From the NCBI GenBank assembly GCA_021325275.1, contig JAJPHL010000014.1, positions 33,206 to 97,205 on the forward strand: a stretch of 64,000 nucleotides of DNA. The letters are read 5' to 3'. The notes under the pieces were generated by a model. The model saw nothing but the letters and a program-made list of their open reading frames with translations, was not told the DNA's origin and did no database searches. The stretch comes from Terriglobia bacterium. Its GTDB lineage: Bacteria > Acidobacteriota > Terriglobia > JAJPHL01. Both the position numbers and the translations under genes were made by a program. This document shows, one piece after another, positions 37,880 to 40,282 of the stretch. Every line of letters begins with the position of its first letter. Position 1 is the stretch's first letter.

Positions 37880-40282
37880 ATGATGGACGGGCAGCGGCGC
37901 TTTCGCGTCAACGAACCTAGAGTTCTTTGTCAACAATTCGATCAGGAAGTAGCAGTCGTTCACTTAGCGACAGGCAACTACCACAGCTTGTCTGGAATCG
38001 CCGGCGAAGCGTTCCTCATCCTTGGATCGGCCGGCGCTTCCCGGGACGATGTCGTGGCGGAACTTTTGGCCCGCTACGACGTTTCGCGCGAAGTCATCGA
38101 ACAGGATTTAAGTGTTTTCCTCGAGGAACTGCAATCGCAGCGCTTGATTGTTCCTGCGCGCGATGGCGCGCCGCGCGTCTTGAAGACAACAACGGAGCCG
38201 GCCGCGCGCGCTTCCTACTCCGCGCCGAAAATCGAAACCTTCAACGATCTGCAAGAGCTGTTTCTCCTCGATCCCGTACATGACGTCGACGAAGCCGGTT
38301 GGCCGAACGCCGCACCTGCCATCAGCGCCGCGGCTGTCAATAATCCCGCGTACGTTGGGGACGGTGAGATCATGCCCGCCTCGACACGTTGCCGCCTCGC
38401 AGGTCCCAACGTGATTTTCGAACGCTTCGACGACGAGACCGTCGCGATCAACGTGGGCAGCGGCTCGTACCACAGTCTGAACGGCGTGGCCGAAGACATA
38501 TTCCTGCTTTTTCCCTACGAACCGACGATCGGGGAGATCCGCGCCGCGCTTCACGCGAAGTATGCGGTGGAAGAAGCGGAATTGGAATCGGCGCTTCAAG
38601 CGCACCTCAATGAGCTCGTCGACGCGGGCCTGATCGTTACGGAGAAATCCGAAGGCAGCGGCGGCCGAGCATTGGAATTGTCCCGCGGCGGCACGGGCGT
38701 TCCTTTCTCGCAGCCGGTGCTGGGAGTTTTCGGGCAGCCGTCGTTCGATCGATTCGGCGCCACTCCGCAATCGAATCTCGAGCCGGCGATGGAATCCGCC
38801 GACCCGTCTCGAAAAATGCATTACGCGGTCGCTCCGCGAGATTTGATCGTCACGGAGTCCGGCGGTGAAATGGTGATTTGCGATCGCGACGCCGGATATT
38901 ACTTCAAGCTGAATCGGGCCACGACCGAAGCGTTTCACGCTTTGCTGCGCGGATCGGTGAGCGACGCCGCGGCCCATTTGCAGCGAAAATACGACGTCGC
39001 GCAACGGGATTTGCGAAGTGCGGTCATCGGTTTGATTTGGAATTTGCGGCAACTCCGCTTAGTGGTGCTGACTCCGGACGAATCTCCCGAGCGAACGGCG
39101 CCGTTCAATGCCAACGGCGGAATGCGTCTCCCATTCTCGGGATTTCATGTCGAGGTTTATCGCGACATGGAAGAGCTTATGCGACCGTTCAATCCGGCGC
39201 AAGCGTCCGCGTCCAATCCCAAGCATCGCGACCGCCATGGGCGCATGTTCACGGAGATGCTCGACGATTACTTCGCGGAAGTTTCCGCGGCCGGGGCTAG
39301 CGACGGCGTTTACTCGGTGGGTGGACACGCGACGCGAATTCGCTGCGCGGGCGATGCGCAGTTGGCGCAGCTTCGGCGTCCCTTCGAGCATCTCGCCGCT
39401 GCGGCCGCCTCGCCTGACTTGACGATCCACGTGTGGAATTGCAGTTCGCTCGCGCCGGGACCACTTCTCGCGGCGCCACTCGAGCGGCTGCGCGAGAATT
39501 GGACGAAAGTCTGTGGTCCTCGCGGCGAATTGGTGGATTTTCATTCCGACGCAGTCTCCGCGATTTTCCATCCCGGTCCCAACGTCTTGAGCGTGCTTGA
39601 TCTCGAGCGCGGCCATGCGTACTTTCTGGCGCAGAATGACGATCCGCTGCCGTTCTGGGAGCTAGGATCGCCGTTCCGTCACATTCTTCATCGTTGGTTT
39701 GCGTCGCGCGGATTGCAGTTCACGCACGCGGCCGCCGTGGGTGGCAGTTGCGGCGGCGTGCTGCTCGCCGGCAAGGGCGGTTCGGGGAAATCGACCACCG
39801 CGTTGCTCTGCGCTGCCGCGGGACTTTCATATGTAGGCGACGACTATTGTTTGATCGACTCTCATGCCGCATGCGCGTTCAGCTTGTACAACACAGCAAA
39901 GTTGAAAGGCGAGGAAGACGTGGCTCGCGTGCCGGAGGTGCGCGATCGTTCCATCAATTCCGACAGCTTCGAGCGCGGCGGTCACGGCAAGGGCGTCTTT
40001 CTTCTGGCGGACGTGTGGCCGGAACGCATGACCAGCGGATTTCCTCTGCGCGCGATTTTGCTTCCGGTGATCACCGGCGCTCCGAACACAAGACTCGAAG
40101 CGTGCGCGCCGTCCGAAGCGCTGCTGGGACTGGCGCCGAGCACCATCGCGCAATTGCCGTGCGCCGCGCAAGCCGACGCCAATCGCCTGGCGGCGCTCAC
40201 CGAAAAGCTTCCCGCGTACAAACTCGTGTTGGGCCGCGATCTCGCCGAGATTCCGGCCGCGGTCCGGCGAGTACTCGAATGA
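37880..40282 (+). CDS. fusion of three PqqD-like (RRE) domains and a C-terminal HprK-like kinase
   Basis: PqqD-like at aa ~12-91, ~176-253, ~320-397 (HLATGNYHSLSGIAGEAF / NVGSGSYHSLNGVAEDIF / RDAGYYFKLNRATTEAF); P-loop LLAGKGGSGKSTTALLCAAAGLSYVGDDYCLID. Confidence 0.88.
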   Translation: MMDGQRRFRVNEPRVLCQQFDQEVAVVHLATGNYHSLSGIAGEAFLILGSAGASRDDVVAELLARYDVSREVIEQDLSVFLEELQSQRLIVPARDGAPRVLKTTTEPAARASYSAPKIETFNDLQELFLLDPVHDVDEAGWPNAAPAISAAAVNNPAYVGDGEIMPASTRCRLAGPNVIFERFDDETVAINVGSGSYHSLNGVAEDIFLLFPYEPTIGEIRAALHAKYAVEEAELESALQAHLNELVDAGLIVTEKSEGSGGRALELSRGGTGVPFSQPVLGVFGQPSFDRFGATPQSNLEPAMESADPSRKMHYAVAPRDLIVTESGGEMVICDRDAGYYFKLNRATTEAFHALLRGSVSDAAAHLQRKYDVAQRDLRSAVIGLIWNLRQLRLVVLTPDESPERTAPFNANGGMRLPFSGFHVEVYRDMEELMRPFNPAQASASNPKHRDRHGRMFTEMLDDYFAEVSAAGASDGVYSVGGHATRIRCAGDAQLAQLRRPFEHLAAAAASPDLTIHVWNCSSLAPGPLLAAPLERLRENWTKVCGPRGELVDFHSDAVSAIFHPGPNVLSVLDLERGHAYFLAQNDDPLPFWELGSPFRHILHRWFASRGLQFTHAAAVGGSCGGVLLAGKGGSGKSTTALLCAAAGLSYVGDDYCLIDSHAACAFSLYNTAKLKGEEDVARVPEVRDRSINSDSFERGGHGKGVFLLADVWPERMTSGFPLRAILLPVITGAPNTRLEACAPSEALLGLAPSTIAQLPCAAQADANRLAALTEKLPAYKLVLGRDLAEIPAAVRRVLE

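Follow-up and report, generated by a model that had tools for sequence, protein, structure and literature searches.

Linear polyphosphorylated peptide (LPP) systems of Bacillota (LppA/B/K/S/D/N) provide the experimental precedent for an HprK partnering an RRE (PMC13381572). They use a separate precursor, YxxPxVLxHQxIxFETxxS, whose core is variable, together with an SpI leader peptidase, and were reported as restricted to Bacillota (PMC13381572). Kinases of the LPP/paeninodin type phosphorylate a Ser of the separate precursor, which is RRE-bound through YxxP (PMC13381572, PMC9266682), and in paeninodin/pseudomycoidin-type systems a kinase and a nucleotidyltransferase act on the RRE-delivered peptide (PMC9266682). 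The RRE-binding motif of lasso and LPP leaders has been given as [Y/W]xxPx[L/V/I/A/F/Y] (PMC13381572).

We compared these systems with a locus in the window, the whole 64,000-nt stretch of Terriglobia DNA analysed here. The LPP trait of an RRE, an HprK-like kinase and an NTP transferase in one locus was present at 36633-42582. The features of the locus are:

36633-37808 (+): NTP_transf_5 (PF14907) nucleotidyltransferase-like protein, conserved operon partner (PF14907 E 6.6e-28)
37880-40282 (+): 800-aa fusion, three units of PqqD/RRE plus leader-like tail, then an HprK-like kinase domain (ORF, Pfam, HprK profile)
37946-38149 (+): PqqD/RRE domain 1, aa 23-90 (PF05402 E 2.2e-12; AF2 pLDDT 92-97)
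38216-38263 (+): tail 1, anchor half YSAPKIETFNDLQELF, aa 113-128, lasso-leader-like [F/Y]xxPxL strand and short helix (AF2, family logo)
38264-38305 (+): tail 1, putative effector half LLDPVHDVDEAGWP, aa 129-142, highly conserved, modelled as unfolded (AF2, alignment frequencies)
38435-38635 (+): PqqD/RRE domain 2 (PF05402 E 3.6e-11; tree)
38702-38731 (+): degenerate tail 2, PFSQPVLGVF, aa 275-284, anchor half only (tail profile 0.1 bits)
38867-39064 (+): PqqD/RRE domain 3 (PF05402 E 4.9e-6; AF2; Foldseek best match 6jx3)
39134-39178 (+): degenerate tail 3, FSGFHVEVYRDMEEL, aa 419-433, anchor half only (tail profile 7.5 bits; AF2)
39224-40279 (+): HprK-like kinase domain (HprK subfamily profile E 4.6e-120)
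39770-39796 (+): Walker A (P-loop) GKGGSGKST of the HprK-like domain (invariant alignment columns)
40279-41043 (+): GT2 glycosyltransferase, overlapping the fusion gene's stop by 4 nt (PF00535 E 5.3e-24)
40943-41710 (+): GT2 glycosyltransferase (PF00535 E 1.2e-28)
41707-42582 (+): second NTP_transf_5-like protein (PF14907 E 3.4e-7, 30.5 bits, just under the cut-off of 31.2)
42561-43730 (+): GT4-type glycosyltransferase (PF13692 E 7.6e-25)

Against Pfam, the 800-aa ORF matched PqqD (PF05402, E 2.9e-31, 108 bits) in three stretches, at aa ~23-90, ~186-252 and ~330-395, and Hpr_kinase_C weakly; Foldseek also matched its PqqD fold to TbiB1 (TMt 0.91). Its HprK-like domain keeps both the Walker A motif and the DD pair in alignment. 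The initial annotation had singled out a leader- or precursor-like peptide at 38216-38305 (+). This interval translates exactly as YSAPKIETFNDLQELFLLDPVHDVDEAGWP, aa 113-142, and the positions of the three PF05402 stretches place it between PqqD domains 1 and 2, where it had been proposed to lie. In the closest same-class homologues the chain is split into a PqqD-tail gene and a separate HprK gene (G429, same sequence as L082). Elsewhere in the window, a long collagen-like open frame with GATGPTG repeats and 12.7 copies of a 36-bp unit (22787-26050, minus strand) is followed by a tail-collar/MdpB-like protein (22093-22641, minus strand), and two overlapping small genes (31442-32196, minus strand) resemble, by eye, a PIN-domain (VapC-like) toxin and its antitoxin.

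Loci encoding this segment as a PqqD tail (tail loci below) share with LPP systems a discrete PqqD-type RRE, an HprK-like kinase, an NTP transferase and an MsbA-like exporter; both lie within glycosyltransferase-rich polysaccharide loci and carry a [Y/F]xxPxL-type RRE-binding motif (PMC13381572). Unlike LPP systems, the tail loci have the motif fused to the RRE, an invariant second half and a distribution over many phyla, and no SpI-type peptidase recurred among their scanned neighbours (25 commonest families). The closest solved structures by profile and fold are lasso B1 proteins (TbiB1 5v1u/5v1v, TfuB1 6jx3, PadeB1), in which the leader forms a strand within the alpha3/beta3 groove; the tail is modelled likewise, but here ligand and RRE are one covalent chain, and the genome lacks PF13471. 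As in paeninodin/pseudomycoidin lasso tailoring, where the NTP transferase is PsmN (PMC9266682), an HprK-like kinase is paired with a nucleotidyltransferase, whereas we found no lasso precursor or leader peptidase and no conserved acceptor Ser in the tail. The NCBIfam HPr-rel-A systems (TIGR04352/TIGR04353) likewise combine a PqqD-like protein with an HprK-like kinase, and the fusion (P0001) scored above the PqqD-model cut-off; its kinase, however, reached 16.7 bits against a TIGR04352 cut-off of 200 bits, and the 74-position PqqD model stops short of the tail. We regard the tail loci as a new variant of lasso/LPP-type RRE-HprK systems.

Judged from sequence, the segment is real and not an ordinary linker, and belongs to a conserved PqqD-tail family, defined here by [F/Y]xxPxL...DM.[D/E]LLLLDP ~23 aa after PqqD together with linkage to an HprK subfamily. 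The fusion protein has both, with HprK in the same chain and the segment scoring 57.7 bits against the family-tail profile, far above chance. A profile search placed the segment once in its own genome. A 34-aa query recovered it at 50-60% identity in ~10 other Acidobacteriota genomes, always C-terminal in small PqqD proteins, and a scan of 85,488 species genomes with the pattern [DE]LLL[LA]DPIH found the tail encoded at 243 loci. The best 80 of the 243, ranked by similarity to the query, span more than a dozen phyla; their record titles name Chloroflexi, Cyanobacteria, Bacteroidetes, Ignavibacteriae, Deltaproteobacteria/Desulfuromonadales, Nitrospirae, Acidobacteria, Verrucomicrobia/Lentisphaerae, Planctomycetes-type, Gemmatimonadetes, Bacillota, Bipolaricaulota and Proteobacteria. 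At 79 of these 80 loci the tail is the C-terminal end of a stand-alone PqqD protein, typically of ~150 aa (roughly 140-300 predicted residues), with 20-38 residues from motif to stop. The initial annotation's impression of a compact, conserved element unlike an ordinary linker, and the resemblance it saw to tails of PqqD-family proteins, were thus borne out.

The family tail reads [F/Y]xxPxLxKY[T/S]DMQ[D/E]LLLLDPIH[E/D]VDExGWP. In the logo of the best 80, F (72/80) and the first P (79/80) of FxxPxL, D (80) and M (80) of DM and V (79) of [E/D]V stand out, an apparent invariance inflated by the ranking on similarity to the query; that of LLLLDPIH is partly by construction, since it formed the search pattern, and the positions on either side do not depend on that pattern. 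Even where the pattern does not reach, the tail exceeds the PqqD domain in conservation: mean majority-residue frequency was 0.80 for HEVDExGWP and 0.68 for the anchor half, against 0.49 for the PqqD core and 0.17 both for the linker and for the positions after the tail. A variant, YxxPxLxAYHDMADLLALDPP..., with a different second half, occurs at two Acidobacteriota loci (L127, L128), and both genomes hold the same HprK subfamily. Four PqqD tails show a further (G/A/D)WP downstream of the conserved GWP (L065, 10102-10162; L080; L086; L090), possibly a duplicated effector or core segment. Thirty other PqqD proteins of the same phylum lack the tail. Pfam and NCBIfam models do not cover it in the proteins tested, and its motif strings appear in no paper of the mainly open-access literature searched.

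An AF2 model of aa 1-166 of the fusion, with 74 relatives in the alignment, gave pLDDT 92-97 for the PqqD core and a mean of 96 for residues 111-120 (ASYSAPKIET), with a strand at 118-121, a helix at 124-128, and 61-64 for residues 131-150, which take in most of the effector half. A model of PqqD3 and its degenerate tail gave 96 for the tail block, with a strand at aa ~424-427 and a helix, then 51-53; the two models are not fully independent, as both alignments share tail-bearing rows. The best structural matches of both were leader-bound structures of lasso RREs (5v1v, 5v1u, 6jx3), the domain 3 model having the lasso B1-leader complex 6jx3 as its best Foldseek match. A DSSP strand requires a partner strand; this and the leader-bound matches point to docking in the groove. 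The FxxPxL half is predicted to occupy the RRE groove in cis with the other half free, a geometry that pLDDT and secondary structure do not separate from docking in trans (dimer exchange), because nearly every alignment row carries the tail. The segment's own motif, YSAPKI, matches the lasso RRE-binding pattern and is modelled as docked, its binding being predicted. This agrees with the suggestion in the initial annotation of an intramolecular RRE ligand, the FxxPxL half fitting the lasso/LPP motif (PMC13381572) and being modelled in cis at pLDDT 96. The annotation had named as counter-evidence a lack of conservation or a fold unrelated to RRE binding; the motif is conserved, and just its first half is modelled as ordered, beside the RRE.

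The tail profile also picked out the degenerate tails after the other two PqqD domains, strongly for tail 3 (0/2000 shuffles as good) and weakly for tail 2 (7/2000 shuffles reached its score). Since these tails lie at equal distance after PqqD, the protein reads as three tandem modules of PqqD and leader-like tail. Domains 1 and 2 pair in the tree (support 0.77), and domain 3 is divergent. The second half of the motif is retained in the first module only.

Profile matches in the best 80 tail loci comprised HprK (65), GT2 (64), NTP_transf_5 (61), ABC exporter (41) and GT4 (22). The window has most of the usual set (HprK-like kinase, NTP_transf_5, GT2, ABC exporter); the gene next after the PqqD-tail gene is commonly HprK in related loci, and here the two are one chain. 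The HprK subfamily was found in 13 of 396 Acidobacteriota genomes and the tail in the same 13 (Fisher p = 1.4e-22, which overstates independence because the genomes are related); the other tail matches in the 396 were a shortened remnant in a genome without HprK (G194) and a chance match (G348). Two of the 13 (G207, G309) carry the variant tail, with just the first half and LDP persisting. PqqD domains in general occurred in 114/149 genomes, so the link is of the tail with the HprK subfamily, not of PqqD with kinases generally. Chloroflexi loci without HprK were considered as a counter-example and rejected, HprK lying elsewhere in those genomes; among eight genomes searched, the six without HprK near the tail locus each have a strong HprK elsewhere. 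The tail-HprK linkage could reflect shared pathway membership rather than contact. In L112 and a 14-gene cluster represented by L077, an HprK-like domain and a GT2 glycosyltransferase share one chain, which again hints at joint action of the two enzymes.

The explanation we favour, with about even confidence, is that the tail is a leader-like ligand of the very RRE to which it is fused, and serves as a docking motif for the HprK pathway. Its first half, FxxPxLxKYxDMxDL, would sit in the PqqD groove as an extra beta-strand, as a lasso/LPP leader does, fixing in place the short, invariant and otherwise unfolded LLLDPIHEVDExGWP. The latter would be where the cognate HprK-like kinase docks, as would its partners NTP_transf_5 and the GT2s, in a putative pathway of phospho/glycan modification that includes an ABC exporter. 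PqqD and kinase are one chain in this genome, with two extra PqqD modules bearing anchor-half tails. We favour docking over a substrate role because the YxxP-like ligand is in the RRE itself and the second half has no conserved Ser/Thr. Against cis-docking, a groove filled in cis leaves the substrate of the pathway unexplained.

The initial annotation had proposed looking for the motif as free small ORFs or as C-terminal PqqD tails, and at 79 of the best 80 loci it turned up as the latter. No free small ORF with the tail motif was found in the genome itself, nor in the 396 Acidobacteriota genomes except the G194 remnant (L016/L126), a 22-aa frame with the shortened motif KPSLEKYTDQQEMLLLDPIHEV-stop that looks like a decayed copy. 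The tail profile had one credible place per genome in the genomes searched; the C34 match in the window's own genome, like that in G348, was set aside as chance. An 83-aa ORF (L061) that lacks a PqqD domain and is not surrounded by operon genes was treated as a relic rather than a free precursor. No conserved small ORF lay beside the 80 loci, where just near-identical Oscillatoria ORFs and antisense clusters turned up, and small ORFs with [YWF]xxPx[LVIAFM] were hardly commoner than in shuffled sequences (66 vs 58, of 906). At 32-52 kb of the window, none of the 12 intergenic small ORFs had [YWF]xxPx[L/V/I/A/F/M], and no LPP-type precursor was found there. The genome had no match to the lasso B2 leader peptidase family (PF13471, Transglut_core3), and no leader-peptidase family, SpI-type included, recurred among the 25 commonest families of 72 scanned neighbours.

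These searches bear on a second reading, possible but in our view unlikely, in which the segment is a fused precursor, as the initial annotation had alternatively suggested: an FxxPxL leader and a DPIHEVDExGWP core, modified in cis by HprK/NTP_transf_5/GT2 and kept as a carrier or released. The order and spacing of leader and core are those of lasso/LPP precursors, no separate precursor ORF was found near the 80 loci or, with the tail profile, elsewhere in the genomes searched, and the second (G/A/D)WP of L065, L080, L086 and L090 is like a core duplication. RiPP HprK-type kinases, however, act on Ser, and in LPP even S3T and S3Y abolish phosphorylation (PMC13381572), whereas the core-like half is invariant and has no conserved Ser/Thr. 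We rejected the [T/S] of KY[T/S]DM as a conserved phosphosite of HprK, this position being N in the window and N, E, D or H in other members, which fits a helix N-cap. That no leader peptidase recurred among the 25 commonest neighbour families, and that the genome has no PF13471 match, also counts against a fused precursor.

Somewhat less probable still is that the PqqD-tail protein acts as a RiPP-like carrier that loads itself, with a built-in leader and invariant core, found in many phyla and needing no separate precursor; HprK, NTP_transf_5 and GT2 would then build a phospho-glycan on the carrier, and the ABC system would export it. We consider improbable an autoinhibitory pseudo-leader, in which the tail competes with another precursor for the groove and gates loading. 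The predicted cis occupancy of the groove would suit it, and the tyrosine hydroxyl is hydrogen-bonded in LPP recognition (PMC13381572), so the F of most members, which lacks that hydroxyl, may be displaceable; but it leaves the even higher conservation of the non-docking half unexplained, and the 80 loci yielded no candidate trans precursor. An ordinary structural linker or C-terminal extension that completes the PqqD fold, with no special role, is very improbable: the anchor half does pack on the domain in the AF2 model, but 30 PqqD proteins of the phylum end without a tail, the tail is linked to one HprK subfamily, and its unfolded half is invariant.

Searches for RiPP clusters are guided by RRE domains and assume a separate leader peptide for each. 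Here, the members of a widespread RRE family seem to hold their leader-like ligand, together with an effector motif of near-invariant sequence, on one chain, one-to-one with an HprK-like kinase. This suggests a peptide- or sugar-modifying pathway that would dispense with a separate precursor peptide. If the docking reading is true, precursor-hunting in tail loci would fail by design, and the tail would be a clean marker of a widely distributed pathway. The role of HprK/NTP_transf_5/PqqD loci in polysaccharide clusters would then be testable with one short peptide.
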